A stretch of DNA of 64,000 nt from the NCBI GenBank assembly GCA_028284325.1, contig JANQRX010000002.1, positions 186,001-250,000 on the forward strand, written 5' to 3'. How positions within the stretch are numbered: position 1 is the first letter of the stretch; each line of letters starts with the position of its first letter. The notes beneath the pieces were generated by a model. That model was not told the origin of the DNA and made no database searches. It saw only the letters and a list, made by a program, of their open reading frames with translations. The DNA is from Bauldia sp. Lineage in GTDB: Bacteria; Pseudomonadota; Alphaproteobacteria; Rhizobiales; Kaistiaceae. The translations under genes were made by a program, and so were the position numbers. This document shows positions 7,744 through 25,819 of this stretch, piece after piece.

Positions 7744-7770
7744 TGATCCGAATGTCGGGTGTCCGCGTAG
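7744..7770 (+). promoter_or_regulatory. ECF-sigma (RpoE/ChrR type) promoter of the fasciclin gene
   Basis: TGATCC at 7744-7749, a 16-base spacer, then CGTAG at 7766-7770. The same arrangement occurs before the sigma factor gene (8393), before the FAD oxidoreductase operon (13892, minus strand) and, with CGTTC, before the DUF2177 gene (13911). The 5' UTR to the ATG at 7850 would be about 73 bases. Confidence 0.75.
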
Positions 7771-7849
7771 ATGACGCAAGCATCGGCGCATGTGGTGTCG
7801 ATGCGGGCCTGCCGGACAGGCCCATCGTCAACAATGGGAGACAGACTCC

Positions 7850-8338
7850 ATGCGCAAGACCATCTTCGGTGCCGCGTTCGCCGTCATGTTCGCGGGCGCC
7901 TCGGGCGCCCAGGCCGCCAACATCGTCGAGACCGCCCAGTCGGCCGGCACGTTCAACACGCTGCTGGCGGCCGCGACCGCGGCCGGCCTCGCCGAGGCGC
8001 TGGCGACCGGCGAGAATCTCACGGTTTTCGCCCCGACCGACGAAGCCTTCGCCGCCCTGCCTGAGGGCACGGTCGACACACTGCTGAAGCCCGAGAACAA
8101 GGACCAGCTCATCGCCGTGCTGACTTACCACGTGCTGCCGCGTGAACTGGCCTCCAACATGCTTCCCGGCCGCACGATCCACGTGAAGACCATCAAGGGC
8201 GACGGCGATCGCCTCCTGGCCGTATCGAAGGACGGGCATGGCGTGACCGTCGACGAGGCCAACGTCGTCGCCGCCGACATCCGCGCCGACAACGGCATCA
8301 TCCACGTGATCGACAAGGTCCTGCTTCCCTCGGACTGA
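7850..8338 (+). CDS. Secreted fasciclin (FAS1) domain protein
   Basis: Encodes 162 aa: a signal peptide (FGAAFAVMFAGASGAQA) followed by a single FAS1 domain filling the rest. The H1 motif reads NLTVFAPTDEAFAALP (about residues 60-75), the YHVLP motif follows (TYHVLPRELAS), and the H2 motif is at the end (NGIIHVIDKVLLP). FAS1 proteins are extracytoplasmic and bind surfaces or other proteins. The start at 7850 follows GGGAG. The gene lies under the first copy of the TGATCC-N16-CGTAG promoter and directly upstream of the sigma-chrR operon. From memory, a fasciclin gene belongs to the singlet-oxygen RpoE regulon of Rhodobacter sphaeroides, which fits this location. Confidence 0.93.
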   Translation: MRKTIFGAAFAVMFAGASGAQAANIVETAQSAGTFNTLLAAATAAGLAEALATGENLTVFAPTDEAFAALPEGTVDTLLKPENKDQLIAVLTYHVLPRELASNMLPGRTIHVKTIKGDGDRLLAVSKDGHGVTVDEANVVAADIRADNGIIHVIDKVLLPSD

Positions 8339-8392: not shown

Positions 8393-8419
8393 TGATCCGT
8401 TGCCGCGTCACGTCCGTAG
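8393..8419 (+). promoter_or_regulatory. Autoregulatory ECF-sigma promoter of the rpoE-chrR operon
   Basis: TGATCC at 8393-8398, 16 bases, then CGTAG at 8415-8419. It lies 28 bases before the sigma gene's ATG, which is preceded by AGGAGA. Identical spacing and elements occur at three other regulon promoters in this window, and ECF sigma genes usually read their own promoter. Confidence 0.78.
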
Positions 8420-8446: not shown

Positions 8447-9049
8447 ATGCTAGCCGCATTGGCTGTGACAGACGTTCAGCCGGAGTCTCGACCGTTGGCG
8501 GACGCGGCCGAGGAACACAAGGCGATGATGGCGCGGATCGCCGAATTCGGCGACCGGACGGCCTTCAAGGCGCTTTTTCTCCACTTCGGTCCACGCCTGA
8601 AGTCGTTCATGATGAAATCCGGCGCCTCCGCGGCGCAGGCCGAGGATCTGGTCCAGGACGTCATGCTGACGGTGTGGCGCAAGGTGCACCTCTATTCGGC
8701 CGACCGCGGGTCGGTCAGCGGCTGGATCTTCACCATCGCCCGTAATCTGCGCATCGATCGGCTGCGCGCCGGGTCGTCGCAGCCCTATGAAGATCTGGAG
8801 ACGATCGAGATTGCGGGCGAGGAGCCGAGCGGCGAGGATGTGACGCTTGCCGGCCAGCGTGCGGAACGCGTCGCGGCGGCGCTCGCCGGCCTGCCGGACG
8901 AGCAACGCGAGGTCATCCACATGGCCTTCGTCGAAGACATCCCGCAAAGCGCGATCGCGGCCAGGCTCGACCTGCCGCTGGGGACCGTCAAGTCGCGGAT
9001 GCGGCTCGCCTATTCCAAACTGAAAGTCCAGCTTGAGGGACTGCAATGA
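8447..9049 (+). CDS. rpoE: ECF RNA polymerase sigma factor, RpoE/ChrR-associated group
   Basis: Encodes 200 aa. Region 2 (about residues 40-105) has the core-binding and -10 recognition helices: QAEDLVQDVMLTVWRK and SVSGWIFTIARNLRIDRLR. Region 4 (about 140-195) has the helix-turn-helix LDLPLGTVKSRMRLAYSKLK that reads the -35 element. It is followed, with a four-base ATGA overlap, by a ChrR-type zinc anti-sigma gene, the arrangement of the ECF11-like group. In Rhodobacter sphaeroides this sigma factor drives the response to singlet oxygen. The start at 8447 is supported by AGGAGA nine bases upstream. I infer that it reads the TGATCC-N16-CGT promoters found at 7744, 8393, 13892 and 13911. Confidence 0.93.
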   Translation: MLAALAVTDVQPESRPLADAAEEHKAMMARIAEFGDRTAFKALFLHFGPRLKSFMMKSGASAAQAEDLVQDVMLTVWRKVHLYSADRGSVSGWIFTIARNLRIDRLRAGSSQPYEDLETIEIAGEEPSGEDVTLAGQRAERVAAALAGLPDEQREVIHMAFVEDIPQSAIAARLDLPLGTVKSRMRLAYSKLKVQLEGLQ

Positions 9050-9693
9050 CAAGCGTCCATCACCACCTCGATCACGCGACCGTCCTGCGCTACGCGGCCG
9101 GCGATCTCGACGAGGCGTTCTCGGTCGTGGTCGCGTCCCATCTGGCGATGTGTCCGGTCTGCCGGCGCGCGGTCGCCGCAGCCGAGGATGTCGGCGGCCA
9201 GTTGCTGGAAGACGACGGCGAGGCGGACCTCGATCCCGGCCTCCTCGACCGGGTCATGGCTGGTCTCGACGATGTCGAGACGGCGGAGCCGACACCGGCG
9301 CCGCGCACCGACGGGGAGGTGCCGTACCCGTTGCAGCGCTTCGTCGGCGGCGAGCTCGACGCGATCTCGTGGCGGCCCGTGGCGCCCGGAATCAAGCGGC
9401 ATTCCATCAGGCTTGGCGGGTCGTCGTCGCTCTATCTTCTCAACATCGGTCCGGGCAAGGCGATGCCCGAGCACGGTCACGGCGGGCAGGAGATGACGCT
9501 GATCCTCTCCGGTGCCTATCGCGATGCCATCGGCCGGTTCGGACCGGGCGACATCGCCGATCTCGACGTGCATGTGGAGCACCAGCCGGTCGTCGAGCCG
9601 GACGAGGCGTGCATCTGTCTGGTGGCGACCGAGGCGCCGACGCGCTTCAAGGACGTCGTCAGCCGCCTGCTGCAGCCGATCGTCCGTATCTGA
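9046..9693 (+). CDS. chrR: ChrR-family zinc-binding anti-sigma factor with cupin domain
   Basis: Encodes 215 aa in two domains. The N-terminal anti-sigma domain (about residues 1-75) carries the zinc motif HxxxCxxC (H32, C36, C39) plus nearby N-terminal histidines (H5-H7). The C-terminal cupin (about 95-200) has H143, H145, E149 and H179, matching the metal ligands of R. sphaeroides ChrR with an offset of about two. Family knowledge: the N-terminal domain holds the sigma factor inactive, and the cupin domain is needed for release upon singlet oxygen or organic hydroperoxide stress. All ligands are present, so the switch should work. Coupled to the sigma gene by a four-base overlap. Confidence 0.94.
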   Translation: MTSVHHHLDHATVLRYAAGDLDEAFSVVVASHLAMCPVCRRAVAAAEDVGGQLLEDDGEADLDPGLLDRVMAGLDDVETAEPTPAPRTDGEVPYPLQRFVGGELDAISWRPVAPGIKRHSIRLGGSSSLYLLNIGPGKAMPEHGHGGQEMTLILSGAYRDAIGRFGPGDIADLDVHVEHQPVVEPDEACICLVATEAPTRFKDVVSRLLQPIVRI

Positions 9694-9714: not shown

Positions 9715-10476
9715 ATGAGTCTGCCCTGGTCCTGCGCCTGGATCATCGGTGCGAGCTCCGGCATGGGCCGCGAACTCGCCCGCCTCCTCGACGGGCGGGT
9801 GGCCTACGTCGCCGTCTCCGCCCGATCCGAGGGCGCCCTGACGAACCTCGCGAGGGAAAGCCGGACGATCCACGCCTATCCGCTCGACGTCACCGGGCCG
9901 GACGACGTCGCCACGGCCGCGCGGGCAATCGAAGCCACGGGCGGCCCGATCGACCTCGTCGTGCTCAGCGCCGGCGCGTGGACGCTGATGGACGCCGCCG
10001 ATCTCGATATCGACGCCGTCCGCCGCGGGGTCGAGGTGAACTACATGGGCACGATCCACGGCCTGGCTGCGGTGCTGCCGGGCATGCTCGCCCGCGGTCG
10101 CGGTCATATCGCGATCATGGCGTCGGTGGCCGGATATCGCGGGCTGCCGCGCTCGATCGCCTACGGCCCGACCAAGGCGGCGCTGATCAACCTCGCCGAG
10201 ACCCTGCGGGTCGAGTTAGCCGGCAAAGGCATCACCGTGTCGCTCATCAATCCCGGCTTTGTCGACACGCCGCTGACGCGCACCAACCCGTTCCCCATGC
10301 CGGGCCTGATGACGGCGGAGGCGGCGGCGCGCCGGATCCTGCGCGGTCTGGAGCGCCGGCGGTTCGAGATCGCCTTTCCGTTCGGTTTCACGATGGCCAT
10401 GAAGGCGCTGCGCACCATGCCGACCGTGGCCTATCTGTGGATCATGCGCCGCACGGTGATGCGCAACGCCGCGTGA
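9715..10476 (+). CDS. SDR-family short-chain dehydrogenase/reductase, stress-regulon member
   Basis: Encodes 253 aa. The NAD(P)-binding loop reads GASSGMGREL, the active-site segment has the catalytic Ser (MASVAGYRG) and the YxxxK pair (YGPTKAAL), and NPGFVDTPLT is the usual C-terminal SDR motif. A hydrophobic/basic C-terminus (FGFTMAMKALRTMPTVAYLW) suggests membrane association. It starts 21 bases after chrR with no intervening promoter, so it is probably the third gene of the sigma operon. An SDR of this kind also sits beside the homologous lipid genes in the R. sphaeroides RpoE regulon (from memory). The substrate is unknown; a keto- or hydroxy-lipid is an attractive guess given its neighbours. 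Confidence 0.9.
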   Translation: MSLPWSCAWIIGASSGMGRELARLLDGRVAYVAVSARSEGALTNLARESRTIHAYPLDVTGPDDVATAARAIEATGGPIDLVVLSAGAWTLMDAADLDIDAVRRGVEVNYMGTIHGLAAVLPGMLARGRGHIAIMASVAGYRGLPRSIAYGPTKAALINLAETLRVELAGKGITVSLINPGFVDTPLTRTNPFPMPGLMTAEAAARRILRGLERRRFEIAFPFGFTMAMKALRTMPTVAYLWIMRRTVMRNAA

Positions 10477-10489
10477 GGCATGCGCCGGG

Positions 10490-11719
10490 TCAAGGCCGGC
10501 GCAGCGTATAGACACCGACGTCGATGGCGCCTTCCAGGAATCCCGCCTCGCAATAGGCGAGGTAGTAGCGCCACATGCGGCGGAACCGTTCGTCGAAGCC
10601 GAGCGGCCGGATGGCCGGCCAGGCCGCCTCGAAGCGCTCCCGCCATAGGCGGAGCGTCCGCGCGTAACTCAAGCCGAACGTGCGCTGGCGCTCGAGAACG
10701 AGCCCGGCCGCGCGCGCTTCGTCGGCGATCGCTGTCTTCGTCGGCAGCATGCCGCCGGGGAAGATGTAGCGCTGGATGAAATCCGGGTTGCGCCGATAGG
10801 CGTCAAAGCGCGCTTCGTCGATGGTGATCGCTTGGATCACCGCCAGGCCGCCGGACTTCAGGCGGTCGTGGAGGGCGGCGAAATAGGTCGGCCAATAGAC
10901 CTCGCCGACCGCCTCAACCATCTCCACCGACACGATGCGGTCGTAGGTGCCGTCGGCGTCGCGGTAGTCGGTGAGCTCGAAACGGCACGTATCCAGCCCC
11001 TCGGCCGCGGTGGCGGCGACGGCATGGTCGTACTGCTCGCGCGAGAGCGTGATGCCGGTGACGTCGACGCCGCGACGGGCGGCCCGGCGGGCGAGCGCAC
11101 CCCAGCCGCAGCCGATTTCCAGGAGCCGCTGGCCCGGCGCGAGGTCGGCTTCGTCGAGGACGAGGTCGAGCTTGGCCTTCTGCGCATCGTCCAGGCTGTC
11201 GCCCGGGTCGCGGAAAAGCCCGCTGGAATAGACCATGTCGGCGTCGAGCCATTGCCGGAAGAAGTCGTTGCCGAGGTCGTAGTGGGCGGCAATGTTGCGG
11301 CGGCTGCCCCGGCGCGTGTTCCGCCGTCGGCGATGGGCGCGGCGGTCGCCATCGCGGACGCGGAAAACGGACGGTCCGGCCTCGCCCAGGCGGGCGCGGT
11401 TGCGCAGGAAGAACCGGAAGAGCGCGGCGAGGTCCGGCGAGTCGATCCCGCCGTCGAGATAGGCCTCGGCGAAGCCGAGCGCACCGCGCCTCAGCGCCCG
11501 CGCGAGGACCGCATAATCGTTGACGATCAGGCGGGCCTCGTCGTCGTCGGCGCGGCCGAAACGGACCGACTCGCCGGTCGGCAGATCGATGACGATCGCG
11601 CCGTCCGGCTCCCAGGCGAGGAAGGGGCGGGCGGCCGTCTTGATCAGCGCCGTCACCGCGCGCAGCGCGAAACCGGTGCGGGGCGGCGGCCCGGCGAGAA
11701 GGTGGTCGTTGGAACTCAC
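10490..11719 (-). CDS. Cyclopropane-fatty-acid-synthase-like SAM methyltransferase, altered active site (UfaM-like candidate)
   Basis: Encodes 409 aa with a GTG start at 11719 overlapping the DUF1365 stop (GTGA). The SAM loop is LLEIGCGWGALARRA (about 199-213), and the CFA-type lipid-binding segment HYDLGNDFFRQW precedes it. Compared from memory with E. coli Cfa, three of the five bicarbonate-contacting residues differ: the Cys of YSC is Ser (S166), the His of LLHTIG is Gln (Q296), and the Tyr of WYERF is Arg (R360). Glu269 and Ile298 are kept. True cyclopropane synthases need this bicarbonate. The protein may therefore methylate an unsaturated acyl chain without closing a ring, as UfaM does in furan fatty acid synthesis. 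It is last in a three-gene operon behind an ECF promoter. The family is certain; the product is an inference. Confidence 0.88.
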   Translation of the reverse strand: MSSNDHLLAGPPPRTGFALRAVTALIKTAARPFLAWEPDGAIVIDLPTGESVRFGRADDDEARLIVNDYAVLARALRRGALGFAEAYLDGGIDSPDLAALFRFFLRNRARLGEAGPSVFRVRDGDRRAHRRRRNTRRGSRRNIAAHYDLGNDFFRQWLDADMVYSSGLFRDPGDSLDDAQKAKLDLVLDEADLAPGQRLLEIGCGWGALARRAARRGVDVTGITLSREQYDHAVAATAAEGLDTCRFELTDYRDADGTYDRIVSVEMVEAVGEVYWPTYFAALHDRLKSGGLAVIQAITIDEARFDAYRRNPDFIQRYIFPGGMLPTKTAIADEARAAGLVLERQRTFGLSYARTLRLWRERFEAAWPAIRPLGFDERFRRMWRYYLAYCEAGFLEGAIDVGVYTLRRP

Positions 11720-12504
11720 GACGTGCCCTCGCGCGTGGCCGTGTCACCGGCAAGCGGTCGGGCTTGTGATTGGGCTCGGGGGCGACGGTAGACCTTGAGG
11801 CCCTTCATCCACAGGCGCGCCGCCTCGACATGGATGCCGACGATCACCTTCGCGGTCATCCAGCCGGTGCGTGCCAGCGCCGCGACCAGGGCGGCGTCGG
11901 TGAGCGGACGCCGCTCGGCGGCGAACGTCGCGTTCAGGACCGGTCCGGCCTCATCGCGCAGGGCGATGCCGACGGTCAGGCGCTGGCCCGGCTCGGTCAG
12001 GCGGAAGGTGTAACGGCCGGTCACATCGTTAAACGGCGAAACATGCATGCGTTTGGCGCAGGACTGCCGCACCGAGCCGTCATCGAGAGGCTCGGCCGGC
12101 AGGGTGTAGGTGGTGCGCTCGCCGAAGGTGTTGTTGACCTCGTAGATGGTCACGCGAAGCCGGTCGTCGGCGTCGGTGCCGTAATAAACGGTGAGCGGAT
12201 TGAACGCGTAACCGAGAATCCGCGGATAGCAGAGCATGCGGTAGCGGGTTACTGACGTGCCGGCCGGACCGGCGGCGCGATCGAGGTGGCGGCGAAGATC
12301 GCCGCTGCCGTCGCCGTGATCGCGGGTATGGAGGCTGATCAGGTTGGCGCGATTTACGGACAGGAGCCGGAGACGCCGGTCGAGTTGCTCCAGCCGGTCG
12401 ACGTCAACGAGCAGCGAGAAGACGCGGTAGCGGAGCCGGTGCGCCACCGGCCGCACCCGCCGGTGGACCACGAAACCCTCGTACAAAGCGCCGTCCAGCA
12501 TCAT
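11716..12504 (-). CDS. DUF1365 family protein of the CFA/furan-lipid cluster
   Basis: Encodes 262 aa from the ATG at 12504, one base after the stop of the FAD gene; a second ATG follows immediately. The family signature is clear: LYEGFVVHRRVRPVAHRLRY at the start, NRANLISLHTRDHGDGSG, CYPRILGYAFNPLTVYY, YEVNNTFGERTTY, MHVSPFNDVTGRYTF and GWMTAKVIVGIHVEAARLW near the end. DUF1365 genes almost always sit between an FAD amine-oxidase-like gene and a CFA-like methyltransferase gene, exactly as here. Its biochemical activity has not, to my knowledge, been assigned. The conserved His and Asn residues suggest an enzyme or a lipid-binding partner in the same pathway. Confidence 0.93.
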   Translation of the reverse strand: MMLDGALYEGFVVHRRVRPVAHRLRYRVFSLLVDVDRLEQLDRRLRLLSVNRANLISLHTRDHGDGSGDLRRHLDRAAGPAGTSVTRYRMLCYPRILGYAFNPLTVYYGTDADDRLRVTIYEVNNTFGERTTYTLPAEPLDDGSVRQSCAKRMHVSPFNDVTGRYTFRLTEPGQRLTVGIALRDEAGPVLNATFAAERRPLTDAALVAALARTGWMTAKVIVGIHVEAARLWMKGLKVYRRPRAQSQARPLAGDTATREGTS

Positions 12505-12505
12505 G

Positions 12506-13834
12506 CTACTCCGCCGCCTCGCGTATCGGAGGCTCCAGTGCCGTTGCAATCCGTCCCGATTCCTGCGGCACGGTCCAAGGGCGTTTGACGCCGCCCAGCC
12601 GTTCGGCCACCGCTAGGCCGGCCTGGAGGCCGTCCTCGTGGAAGCCGTAGCCGAAATAGCTGCCGCAGAACCAGGTCCGGTTCACGCCCTGCACCTCCGG
12701 CAGCCGGCTCTGTGCGGCGATGGCGCCGGCGTCGAGCACCGGGTGGTCGAAGTCGATCTCAAGGTCGATGAGGGCCGGGTCGATCGCGCGGTCGGGATTG
12801 AGCGTCACGAACAGGTCCGTGGACGTGGGGAGGTTCTGGAGGCGGTTGGTCCAGTAGGTGACACAGAGATCGCTGTCGGGGCCGGCGCCTTGTTTGAGAT
12901 AGTTCCAGCTCGACCACAGCCGGCGGCGCCGTGGCATCAGGTGTCGGTCGCGGTGGAGGACCACGCGGTTGGTCTGATAGCCGAAGCTGCTGAGAACCGA
13001 CCGTTCCGCCGGCGTCGGGGCGTCGAGCAGGGCGAGGGCGGTGCCTGCATGGGTGGCCATGACCACGTGATCGAACGGCCGGTCGACGCCGCGATCGTCG
13101 CGAATGACGGCATGGTTTTGCCGGCGAATGATCTTTCGGACCGGGTTGGCGGAGGAAATTTCCACTGAAACATCATCAAGAAGCCGGCTAACATAGGTCC
13201 GGCTGCCGCCGGCCACCGTGCGCCAGTCGGGGCGGTTGCGGAACCGCAGCATGCCGTGGTTGGCGTAGAACTCGACGAAGGTCCTGGCGGGGAAGTCCAG
13301 GAAACTCGCCATCGACGTCGACCAGATGGCCGCCCCCATCGGCAGGATGTGGTCGTGGACGAAGGCCTCGGAGTAGCCGCAGCGGGCCAGGAAGGCGCCC
13401 AGCGTCTCATCGGGGTGCCGGCGTGCCTCGTCTTCGGCCGTTCTGAAGAATCGAGCGACGTCGGCGAGCAGCCGCCAGTGGCGGGGGCTGGCGACATTGT
13501 GGGGCTGACCGAAGAATCCCGGGAACCCGGCGCTCGCATACTCGTAGCGGCCGCGATCGACCGAGACCGAAAAGCTCATCTCGGTCGGTTGCGTGGCGAC
13601 ACCGAGATGATCGAACATCGCCGTGAGATTCGGGTAATTGGCCTCGTTGTAGACGACGAAACCGGTGTCGACGGCGACCGTGCCGGACGGGGTCTCGACG
13701 TCGACGGTGTGGGCATGGCCGCCGGGCGTCGGCGCCTGCTCGAACAGCGTCACACGGTGTCGGCGTGCGAGCAGCCAGGCGGCGGACAGACCGGATATGC
13801 CGGACCCGATGACGGCGATGCTCAATGGTTTCAT
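12506..13834 (-). CDS. FAD-dependent oxidoreductase, flavin amine oxidase type (UfaD-like candidate)
   Basis: Encodes 442 aa. The N-terminus holds an FAD dinucleotide fold (IAVIGSGISGLSAAWLLARR, then LFEQAPTPGGHAHT). The next segment, DTGFVVYNEANYPNLTAMFD, is typical of the FAD protein that accompanies DUF1365 and CFA-like genes. The C-terminal FAD-closing motif is WFCGSYFGYGFHEDGLQAG. In Rhodobacter sphaeroides the equivalent gene (UfaD, as I recall RSP_1091) acts as a desaturase on methylated acyl chains in furan fatty acid synthesis. First gene of a minus-strand operon with DUF1365 and the methyltransferase (gaps of 1 base and -4 bases), with its own ECF-type promoter at 13892-13866. The fold is certain; the furan-lipid role is inferred from context. 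Confidence 0.92.
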   Translation of the reverse strand: MKPLSIAVIGSGISGLSAAWLLARRHRVTLFEQAPTPGGHAHTVDVETPSGTVAVDTGFVVYNEANYPNLTAMFDHLGVATQPTEMSFSVSVDRGRYEYASAGFPGFFGQPHNVASPRHWRLLADVARFFRTAEDEARRHPDETLGAFLARCGYSEAFVHDHILPMGAAIWSTSMASFLDFPARTFVEFYANHGMLRFRNRPDWRTVAGGSRTYVSRLLDDVSVEISSANPVRKIIRRQNHAVIRDDRGVDRPFDHVVMATHAGTALALLDAPTPAERSVLSSFGYQTNRVVLHRDRHLMPRRRRLWSSWNYLKQGAGPDSDLCVTYWTNRLQNLPTSTDLFVTLNPDRAIDPALIDLEIDFDHPVLDAGAIAAQSRLPEVQGVNRTWFCGSYFGYGFHEDGLQAGLAVAERLGGVKRPWTVPQESGRIATALEPPIREAAE

Positions 13835-13865
13835 GTCGGGGTGCGGGTTCGTTGCGACATGTTCA

Positions 13866-13892
13866 CTACGCGCCCGGGTGGCCGACGGATCA
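13866..13892 (-). promoter_or_regulatory. ECF-sigma promoter of the FAD/DUF1365/methyltransferase operon
   Basis: On the minus strand TGATCC occupies 13892-13887, followed by 16 bases and CGTAG at 13870-13866. It lies 31 bases before the ATG at 13834. Its -35 box is 18 bases from that of the divergent promoter at 13911, so both operons can be opened from one regulatory region. Confidence 0.78.
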
Positions 13893-13910
13893 CCCGCCGT
13901 CGAGGAGGAG

Positions 13911-13937
13911 TGATCCGCGAACGGCGCGGCGACGTTC
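13911..13937 (+). promoter_or_regulatory. ECF-sigma promoter of the DUF2177 gene
   Basis: TGATCC at 13911-13916, a 16-base spacer and CGTTC at 13933-13937; the -10 side matches less well than the other three copies (CGTAG). It lies 31 bases before the ATG at 13969, back to back with the promoter for the minus-strand operon. Confidence 0.65.
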
Positions 13938-13968
13938 TCAGAGCATATCCGTCGGGAAAGGGCCGGAA

Positions 13969-14376
13969 ATGTTGAGGTATATCGTTGCCTATCTGGCGAC
14001 CGCGGTCGTCTTTCTGGCGATCGACTATGTCTGGTTAACGCGTGTCGCCCTGCAATTCTACCGCGAGAATCTCGGCGACCTGCTGCTCGCCAATCCGCGG
14101 ATAGGCGCGGCCGCCGCGTTTTATGCCGTCTACGTCATCGGCATCGTGATCTTTGCCGTCGCGCCGGCCCTGCGTTCGGGAAGCGCCCTGACGGCGCTGG
14201 CGTTCGGGGCGCTGTTCGGGTTCTTCGCCTATGCCACCTACGACATGACCAACTACGCGACCCTGAAGAACTGGCCGCTGACGGTCTCGGTGGTCGACAT
14301 CATCTGGGGGACCGCCCTGACCGGTGTCTCGGCGTGGCTCGGGGCCTTGATCACACGGGCGATCCTGCCCGCCTGA
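13969..14376 (+). CDS. DUF2177 family membrane protein, stress-regulon member
   Basis: Encodes 135 aa with four predicted membrane helices. The DUF2177 signature is clear: a first helix with VFLAIDYVWLTRVALQFYR, then PRIGAAAAFYAVYVIGIVIF, GALFGFFAYATYDMTNYATL, and WPLTVSVVDIIWGTALTG. The charged and polar residues in the helices (D in IDY, the YDMTN motif, VDIIWG) are conserved in the family, whose function is unknown. It is divergent from the FAD oxidoreductase operon across a shared regulatory region with two ECF-type promoters. As I recall, a DUF2177 gene also sits among the RpoE-controlled genes of R. sphaeroides, so a role in singlet-oxygen or lipid stress is likely. Confidence 0.92.
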   Translation: MLRYIVAYLATAVVFLAIDYVWLTRVALQFYRENLGDLLLANPRIGAAAAFYAVYVIGIVIFAVAPALRSGSALTALAFGALFGFFAYATYDMTNYATLKNWPLTVSVVDIIWGTALTGVSAWLGALITRAILPA

Positions 14377-14472: not shown

Positions 14473-16146
14473 GTGTGGGTGGACGTTGCGGTTCGTTTGG
14501 AGCGGGGTCTGGACGCGGTGGCGCGCTCGCGCGCCGCGTCCCTGGCGACCATCCTGCTCGTCACGCTGCTGGCGACCGCCCCCGGTTTCCTGACCCTGCC
14601 GATCGTCGACGGTTCGGAGTCGGCCTTCGCCGTCGGCGCCCGGGCGATGGCCGACAGCGGCAACATGGTCGCCATCCAGCGCCCGACGGCGGCCGCAACC
14701 GACCAATGGGATGCGCGCGGCGGCTACTGGGTGCAGGCCCTGGTCGTGGCGGTCACCGGTGCTGCCGATACGATTGCGGCGTATCGCATGCCGTCCCTTG
14801 CCGCGGCCCTGGCTGTTCCCGTGGCCGCGTGGTGGGCGGCCCTGGGCCTCATCCGCGCCCGTGGCGCCGTCCTGGCGGCGCTGTTCGTCGCCGCGAGCGG
14901 CCTGTTCAATATGCAGGCGCGGCTGGCCACGCCGGACATGGCGGTGCTGCTGGCGTCGGTGCTGGCCGCGGGGTTCCTCGCCCGAGCATGGCGTCCTGGC
15001 CTCCCTGAGGACAAGCGGACGCGGTACGCGTTGGGGTTTTGGGGGTGCGTTGCGCTGGCGTTCGTCTTCGGTGGCGTGGCGGCAATCAGTCCGTTGCTGG
15101 TGACGGCCGGAGTCTTGTCGTTCCGCCGGTCCGTCCAACCGGGTTTCCTGCACTCGAAAGCCGGTCCGGCGGCGCTCGCGGCCGCGATTGCGCTGTGGGT
15201 CGCCGTGTCGCTGATCGCCACCGCCGGTAAGGGGGCCGGGCTGGAGCCGGCCGAGCTGATGCGGCTTGGCATCCCCTCGCGGATCGAGGCGCCACCGGGG
15301 ACCTATTTCCTCCTCGCCCCGCTCTTGGCAGGACCGGCATTGGCGTTCCTGTTCGCGGGGTTCATCTGGCTTCTGGAAAACGGTGGCCGGCCGCCGGTGT
15401 GGTTCGCAGCGGCGTGGGCGATCCCGCCGTGGCTGATGGCCGAATTCTCGCCCGACAAAGTCGCCGCGCTGTTCCTCGCGGCGGTGCCGGGTCTGTGCCT
15501 GCTGGCGGCCATCGCCACGGACCGGCGCGTGGCGCTGGTGTCCGGCTTCATTGCGTGGCTGTTCTCGCTGGGCCTGTTCGTCTGGCCACCGCTCATCGCC
15601 GTCGGCGCGCTCGCCGTGGTGATCCTTGCCGAAGGCGGCGTCCCGGTCCTTGCAGCGGTGTGGCTCATTGCCGGTGCGGTGGCCGGGTCGGTCGCCTGGT
15701 GGTGGCTGTTCCGCCGCTACGCCGTCGGCTCCGCGGTGCTGGCCGTCGCCATGTCCATGCTGATCATCTGGGGGCTGTTCGGGTCGCTCCTGCCCCACAT
15801 CGGCGGCCTGCGGGTGGCGGAGCGTCTGAACGCCGCGACCATGGCCACCACCGGCTGCGCGATGCCGGACGTCACCGTCGCCGGTTTCGCCGAAGAGAGC
15901 GTGACGTTCGCTTTCAACGGCGCGGTGCGGTTCGTCGACACCGAGGCAGCGGTCGCGTTTCTGGCCGCCGACGGCGCGTGCCGGGTCGCGGTCGTCGATC
16001 GCGGCCTCCTGGCGTCCTTCCGGCAGCGCGCGGACGATCTCGGCATCGTCGTCGTCGACAATGCGCGCGTCGCGGGGGTCAATCTGCGCAAGCTCGATCT
16101 CGTCGAACTCCACCTGTTCACGCGATCGGCGGGGGAGGGATCGTGA
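14473..16146 (+). CDS. ArnT-like (GT83/PMT) polytopic glycosyltransferase
   Basis: Encodes 557 aa from a GTG at 14473. After a first membrane helix the periplasmic loop has LTLPIVDGSESAFAVGARAM, corresponding to the acidic catalytic loop of ArnT-type enzymes. RLATPDMAVLL follows, matching the ARxALTDM region, and about ten to twelve helices fill residues 60-440. The C-terminal part (residues about 450-557) is a soluble periplasmic domain. Such enzymes move a sugar from undecaprenyl phosphate onto lipid A, core oligosaccharide or protein. Its stop overlaps the GTG start of a PAP2 phosphatase (GTGA), suggesting joint work on lipid A or undecaprenyl-linked substrates. In Rhizobiales the Rgt enzymes add galacturonic acid; which sugar is used here is unknown. 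Confidence 0.88.
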   Translation: MWVDVAVRLERGLDAVARSRAASLATILLVTLLATAPGFLTLPIVDGSESAFAVGARAMADSGNMVAIQRPTAAATDQWDARGGYWVQALVVAVTGAADTIAAYRMPSLAAALAVPVAAWWAALGLIRARGAVLAALFVAASGLFNMQARLATPDMAVLLASVLAAGFLARAWRPGLPEDKRTRYALGFWGCVALAFVFGGVAAISPLLVTAGVLSFRRSVQPGFLHSKAGPAALAAAIALWVAVSLIATAGKGAGLEPAELMRLGIPSRIEAPPGTYFLLAPLLAGPALAFLFAGFIWLLENGGRPPVWFAAAWAIPPWLMAEFSPDKVAALFLAAVPGLCLLAAIATDRRVALVSGFIAWLFSLGLFVWPPLIAVGALAVVILAEGGVPVLAAVWLIAGAVAGSVAWWWLFRRYAVGSAVLAVAMSMLIIWGLFGSLLPHIGGLRVAERLNAATMATTGCAMPDVTVAGFAEESVTFAFNGAVRFVDTEAAVAFLAADGACRVAVVDRGLLASFRQRADDLGIVVVDNARVAGVNLRKLDLVELHLFTRSAGEGS

Positions 16147-25591: not shown

Positions 25592-25607
25592 CGGCGTAGG
25601 CTGCCGC

Positions 25608-25780
25608 CTGTCGGTGCCCCGAATCCTCGGGGTGAAACGGGAACACGGGAAGCCCTCGCGGGCCGAGCCGTGGCTGCCCCCGCAACTGTAGTCGGCAAGG
25701 GACGACGGCACGCCACCGGTCATCAACCGGGAAGGAGCCGCCGCACCGCCAGAGCCGAAAGCCAGGAGACCGGCCGACAC
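25608..25780 (+). promoter_or_regulatory. Cobalamin (adenosylcobalamin) riboswitch
   Basis: All conserved blocks are visible in order: GTCGG closing strand (25610-25614), GGTGAAACGGGAA, the GGCTGCCCCCGCAACTGTA core, a GGGAAGGAGCC block, and the B12 box AGCCAGGAGACCGGCC (25760-25775) followed by the partner CCGAC. It precedes cobU-cobN-cobO-cobQ. The next ribosome site, GGAAGGGGAGG at 25807-25817, belongs to a short leader ORF, so the switch probably controls translation by hiding that site. High adenosylcobalamin should repress the synthesis operon. Confidence 0.96.
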
Positions 25781-25819
25781 CCGTTAACGACCGCCGTCGG
25801 TGGGACGGAAGGGGAGGCC

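Follow-up and report, generated by a model that had tools for sequence, protein, structure and literature searches.

In this study, we describe a gene block in a 64,000-nucleotide stretch of Bauldia sp. DNA (assembly GCA_028284325.1, contig JANQRX010000002.1, positions 186,001 to 250,000; hereafter the window) which is very probably a furan fatty acid island responsive to singlet oxygen, like those known from Rhodobacter (Cereibacter) sphaeroides and Rhodopseudomonas palustris, with 9M5-FuFA as its predicted product. The gene content and order, the placement of the methyltransferase, its active-site signature, the promoter motifs and the conservation of the block were all observed directly. 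An earlier note on this DNA had recognized a flavin adenine dinucleotide (FAD) oxidoreductase of the UfaD type, a DUF1365 protein, a UfaM-like methyltransferase, a DUF2177 protein and a short-chain dehydrogenase/reductase (SDR) next to rpoE-chrR, and had proposed that they might form an island for furan fatty acids, or for a related lipid modification, controlled by singlet oxygen. All of these genes lie together beside rpoE-chrR with strong Pfam or NCBIfam matches, and the FAD and methyltransferase genes do group with UfaD and UfaM. The ChrR zinc ligands and the promoter motifs argue at the sequence level for the proposed control by an ECF11 sigma-E/ChrR pair.

The system would work as follows. 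ChrR would keep RpoE inactive until singlet oxygen leads to the loss of ChrR, and the freed RpoE would then act at TGATCC-N16-CGTW promoters to transcribe rpoE-chrR-SDR, ufaD-ufaO-ufaM, the DUF2177 gene and a fasciclin gene. Phospholipid-bound cis-vaccenoyl chains would be methylated by UfaM to 11Me-12t-18:1, UfaD would desaturate this product to 11Me-10t,12t-18:2, and UfaO, the DUF1365 protein, would insert O2-derived oxygen to form 9M5-FuFA, a singlet-oxygen scavenger. The SDR and DUF2177 proteins would have accessory parts.

Results

Genes were called from reading frames together with Pfam and NCBIfam family scans of the window. The core of the island is a tightly packed minus-strand operon in the order ufaD-ufaO-ufaM, composed of ufaD (12509-13834), predicted to encode an FAD-dependent methyl-fatty-acyl desaturase, ufaO (11719-12504; PF07103, 259 bits), whose DUF1365 product is the putative furan-ring oxygenase, and ufaM (10493-11719), encoding an S-adenosylmethionine-dependent fatty acyl methylase of the CMAS family. 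The ATG of ufaO begins one base past the ufaD stop codon, and the GTG of ufaM and the ufaO stop share a 4-base overlap. On the plus strand, rpoE (8447-9046), whose ECF11-like product has R. sphaeroides RpoE (2Q1Z) as its best solved match, overlaps by 4 bp with chrR (9046-9690; TIGR02451, 198 bits against a cut-off of 124.5), which encodes a ChrR-family anti-sigma factor; the third gene of this unit, encoding the SDR (9715-10473; PF00106, 137 bits), starts 21 bp downstream of chrR. A DUF2177 membrane protein gene (13969-14373, plus strand; PF09945, 157 bits) is divergent from ufaD.

In the published pathway, UfaM is RSP2144, UfaD is RSP1091 and UfaO is RSP1090, a DUF1365 protein; RSP1091 desaturates 11Me-12t-18:1, and RSP1090 has been shown in vivo and in vitro to insert O2-derived oxygen into 11Me-10t,12t-18:2 (PMC7380195). 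The earlier note left DUF1365 without a step; this assignment as the furan-ring oxygenase (Lemke 2020) supplies one. Cereibacter johrii and C. azotoformans, which served as reference genomes, were picked out by scanning with the solved R. sphaeroides ChrR and the window ChrR combined into one query. The C. johrii operon beside rpoE-chrR (locus L029) has genes of 430, 249, 401, 186 and 245 residues, the last four of which, at 750, 1206, 561 and 738 bp including the stop, have the exact published sizes of RSP1090, RSP1089, RSP1088 and RSP1087 and belong by Pfam to DUF1365, MFS, DUF3833 and SDR, respectively. The window UfaD has no other homologue in its own genome and a single match in each Cereibacter genome (41-42% identity over about 408 residues, 311-315 bits), and its gene, the counterpart of RSP1091, adjoins ufaO, in keeping with its earlier naming. 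UfaO, the DUF1365 protein encoded next to ufaD, is 33-34% identical to its Cereibacter counterparts; residues kept in nearly all of 42 aligned rows include H14, R16, E122, K151 and H225, which might bind a metal or cofactor.

Structural comparison added little for the two DUF proteins. Searching the PDB by sequence returned no relative of DUF1365 and no credible relative of DUF2177. The AlphaFold models were mediocre (UfaO, pLDDT 69 from 7 sequences; DUF2177, with four long predicted helices, pLDDT 73 from 2 sequences), and Foldseek found no significant match for either, the best for UfaO being weak lipocalin/nitrobindin-like barrels (E 0.0037) with low TM-scores. No mechanism was drawn from these folds.

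The assignment of the methyltransferase to UfaM comes from a maximum likelihood tree of 46 proteins and from its residues. The UfaM reference was the sole full-length CMAS protein of C. johrii and of C. azotoformans, standing for RSP2144, to which the window enzyme is 48-49% identical. In this tree, 37 rows form a clade (support 98/95) in which the window enzyme stands with Cereibacter UfaM and with its counterparts from the islands of relatives; a separate clade (97/91) holds E. coli Cfa and the second CMAS protein of the same genome (contig C11), a true Cfa. In E. coli Cfa numbering, all 37 rows of the UfaM clade have S or A139, E236, A240 and Q266, usually with T269, whereas all seven Cfa rows have C139, G236, H240 and H266, mostly with G269; this signature was derived in the present analysis and is not a published criterion. 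The window enzyme carries it, with S in place of C139 and Q in place of H266, and both lines of evidence uphold its description as UfaM-like. In Cfa, the catalytic bicarbonate is held by C139, E239, H266, I268 and Y317, so that UfaM is without two of these ligands and has gained a carboxylate at 236. M. tuberculosis MmaA1, an enzyme that turns a cis olefin into a trans one and places a methyl branch beside it, likewise shows E at 236 and A at 240 in the alignment, whereas the cyclopropane formers CmaA1, PcaA and MmaA2 show G and H. E236 and A240 may plausibly represent a convergent switch to methyl-trans-olefin formation in UfaM and MmaA1.

The same data bear on the idea of a cyclopropane island, in which the CMAS protein would be a Cfa and the FAD and DUF1365 proteins would modify cyclopropane lipids, for instance to cyclopropenes. 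The best NCBIfam model for the window enzyme is indeed the cyclopropane synthase PRK11705, but its score of 269 bits is below the curated cut-off of 400; RSP1090 and RSP1091 were formerly annotated as cyclopropane/cyclopropene synthesis proteins, and Halomonas UfaM expressed in E. coli also yielded some cyclopropane fatty acids (PMC12089945). Nevertheless, with the window enzyme parted from Cfa in the tree, C139 and H266 replaced, and a true Cfa encoded elsewhere in the same genome, we consider a cyclopropane island very improbable and retain the furan fatty acid assignment.

Control by RpoE and ChrR is suggested by both protein and promoter sequences. When aligned to 2Z2S/2Q1Z, the window ChrR has every one of the eight residues that bind zinc in the R. 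sphaeroides protein (listed in PMC6852236), corresponding to H6, H31, C35, C38, H141, H143, E147 and H177, four in the ASD and four in the cupin-like domain. Predicted sigma-E (ECF11) promoters of the form TGATCC-N16-CGTA precede the fasciclin gene (7744-7769, plus strand), rpoE, where autoregulation would result (8393-8418, plus strand), and the ufaD-ufaO-ufaM operon (13867-13892, minus strand), and TGATCC-N16-CGTT precedes the DUF2177 gene (13911-13936, plus strand); the four sites lie 46-106 bp ahead of these genes, the distance depending on the start codon. A motif scan of the window with spacers of 15-18 gave seven matches where 0.85 were expected, and the four N16 matches are all inside the island. 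Among the loci of relatives, the slightly wider form TGATC(C/T)-N16-CGT(A/T) precedes rpoE in 33 of 34, ufaD in 16 of 44 and DUF2177 in 10 of 34, with a few loci counted twice. The same -35/-10 elements have been reported in Shewanella and Vibrio (PMC4336711, PMC5241685).

Because it has the same promoter motif as the other island genes, the gene for a probably exported fasciclin (FAS1) domain protein on the left (7790-8335, plus strand; PF02469, 116 bits; true Met probably at about 7850, MRKTIFGAAF) belongs to the block, which should be extended to include it. The R. sphaeroides fasciclin gene RSP_1409 is strongly induced by singlet oxygen (PMC7074977). A second fasciclin-domain gene of the same genome (contig C12, 44142) has TGATCC-N16-CGTA 87 bp upstream, a site that is also inside another long open frame. 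On the other side, the next gene, at 14473, encodes a PMT-type membrane protein with no evident link to the island. Farther along the window, a cobalamin riboswitch was found at 25595-25792 (87 bits).

The block is widespread. DUF1365 is present in 36 of 61 related genomes and in 100 of 192 genomes across the class, and the relatives' loci, mostly beside rpoE and/or chrR, have ufaD and ufaO next to each other, usually with the CMAS gene adjoining. The compact block, which had been thought unusual, is the rule in this lineage. The search of other genomes for the gene set, which had been advised, found it in dozens; since this set recurs and is accompanied here by four exact TGATCC-N16-CGTW sites, the grouping of the island genes is not due to chance.

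Several points weigh against our interpretation. R. sphaeroides itself is not in the genome data, and the two Cereibacter species stand in for it. UfaD and UfaO owe their probable identities to sequence similarity and gene order. The chemistry, inducer and product would carry over to this organism by homology with published proteins. Finally, 13 motif sites elsewhere in the genome are mostly inside open reading frames and probably arose by chance; taking the genome-wide matches as a regulon was rejected for this reason.

Discussion

It was previously suggested that the pathway is at least partly undescribed, with no assigned step for the SDR and DUF2177 proteins. For ufaD-ufaO-ufaM this does not hold, as they form a complete published set; for DUF2177 it does, as it is the only island gene for which no published test turned up. 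The SDR likewise has no assigned step: deletion of RSP1087 (the SDR of the R. sphaeroides operon), RSP1088 or RSP1089 left the furan, the intermediates and the fatty acid profile of R. sphaeroides unchanged (PMC7380195).

Three observations make DUF2177 a good candidate for an accessory factor of the furan fatty acid system: its occurrence is nested inside that of DUF1365, its gene shares the promoter motif of the other island genes, and an alga under singlet-oxygen stress co-induces a DUF2177 gene with DUF1365 and CFA genes. It occurs in 29 of the 61 relatives, 28 of which also carry DUF1365 (Fisher p 3.5e-9, kinship ignored); with one genome per family outside the window organism's own family, DUF1365 accompanies it in nine of nine (p 6e-4, kinship ignored), and in the class sample in 18 of 20 (p 2e-4, kinship ignored). 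It seems possible, if somewhat short of probable, that DUF2177 is a hitherto unrecognized membrane protein under sigma-E control that takes part in furan fatty acid metabolism, such as an anchor or electron partner of UfaD/UfaO or a transporter of furan-lipid breakdown products, kept in lineages as far apart as alphaproteobacteria and green algae and in many cases joined by a DUF1295-FufM pair. With the same reserve, the changes G236E, H240A and H266Q in UfaM, partly common to MmaA1, may be what turns a cyclopropanating enzyme into one that forms methyl-trans-olefins.

A pathway that is longer and partly new, with the furan or a precursor being modified by the SDR and DUF2177 and with an end product other than 9M5-FuFA, would accord with the position of the SDR gene after rpoE-chrR or within the block in many genomes, with its conserved N109, S137, Y150 and K154, and with the sigma-E motif and nested occurrence of DUF2177. 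We regard it as unlikely, however, given the lack of effect of the RSP1087-1089 deletions, the sufficiency of three genes for 9M5-FuFA and the absence of DUF2177 from 82 of the 100 DUF1365 genomes of the class sample. An accessory role of DUF2177 beside a three-gene route to 9M5-FuFA is the reading that we prefer.

We found no FufM in the window organism's genome, the best matches to a FufM-like relative used as the query in place of RPA0924 being UfaM and Cfa at 31% identity, and no DUF1295. Since FufM was not found, the product should be a monomethyl, not a dimethyl, furan. Eight relatives do encode a methyltransferase closely resembling FufM; each of the eight also has DUF1295 and DUF2177 genes, and in most cases the three are neighbours. 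In one of them (locus L080:11222-13548, and similarly in L085, L086, L088, L089, L097 and L077), the DUF1295, FufM-like methylase and DUF2177 genes adjoin the rpoE-chrR/ufa block. Together with the appearance of the same families in a Chlamydomonas singlet-oxygen list, this cluster suggests a conserved dimethyl-furan extension. A dependence of DUF2177 on FufM or DUF1295 was dropped, as the window genome has DUF2177 without either.

The system is one already described, and the island is a well-founded but ordinary member of it. From its presence, the synthesis of furan fatty acids and a response to singlet oxygen can be predicted for a further lineage. Two points arise from it, namely the role of DUF2177 and whether the residue exchanges in the active site account for UfaM forming a methylated trans olefin where Cfa forms a cyclopropane.

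Comparison with known systems

The R. sphaeroides counterparts were earlier described as scattered, but RSP1087-1091 adjoin rpoE-chrR (RSP1092-1093), as the C. johrii operon also indicates, with RSP_1090/91 immediately upstream in a layout conserved in many Rhodobacteraceae (PMC7074977); only ufaM (RSP2144) is elsewhere. As in the island, ufaD and ufaO lie beside rpoE-chrR under sigma-E control, UfaM is of the same clade, and the regulon includes SDR and fasciclin genes. The island differs in that ufaM is linked, the MFS (RSP1089) and DUF3833 (RSP1088) genes are absent, and the SDR gene follows chrR. Moreover, whereas DUF2177 is part of the island, in both Cereibacter genomes (loci L127 and L128) it lies apart from the ufa operon, and no TGATC(C/T)-N16-CGT(A/T) site was found there in the stretch examined around it. 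With the compact arrangement usual in the present lineage, the separate ufaM of R. sphaeroides appears as a variant.

In R. palustris, the consecutive genes RPA2571-2570-2569 have the same order, ufaD-ufaO-ufaM, and the same assigned functions, and are necessary and sufficient (PMC7380195); a difference from the window genome, where FufM was not found, is that R. palustris encodes FufM (RPA0924) and produces the dimethyl furan. Halomonas sp. YLGW01, a gammaproteobacterium unlike the window organism, also has consecutive ufaM, ufaD and ufaO, and the activity of its UfaM was shown in E. coli (PMC12089945). The most distant parallel is Chlamydomonas, where the genes that singlet oxygen induces through SAK1 (PMC4067076, Table 5) comprise, among others, CFA1, CFA2 (given in another place of that paper as a coclaurine N-methyltransferase), the fasciclin FAS2, DUF1365, DUF2177 (which appears there as a table entry) and DUF1295. 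This alga is a eukaryote with a different regulator; the CFA, DUF1365, DUF2177 and fasciclin families are induced together by singlet oxygen, as predicted for the island, and the parallel of DUF2177 with DUF1365 and CFA genes is, to us, the most interesting part that remains of the finding.

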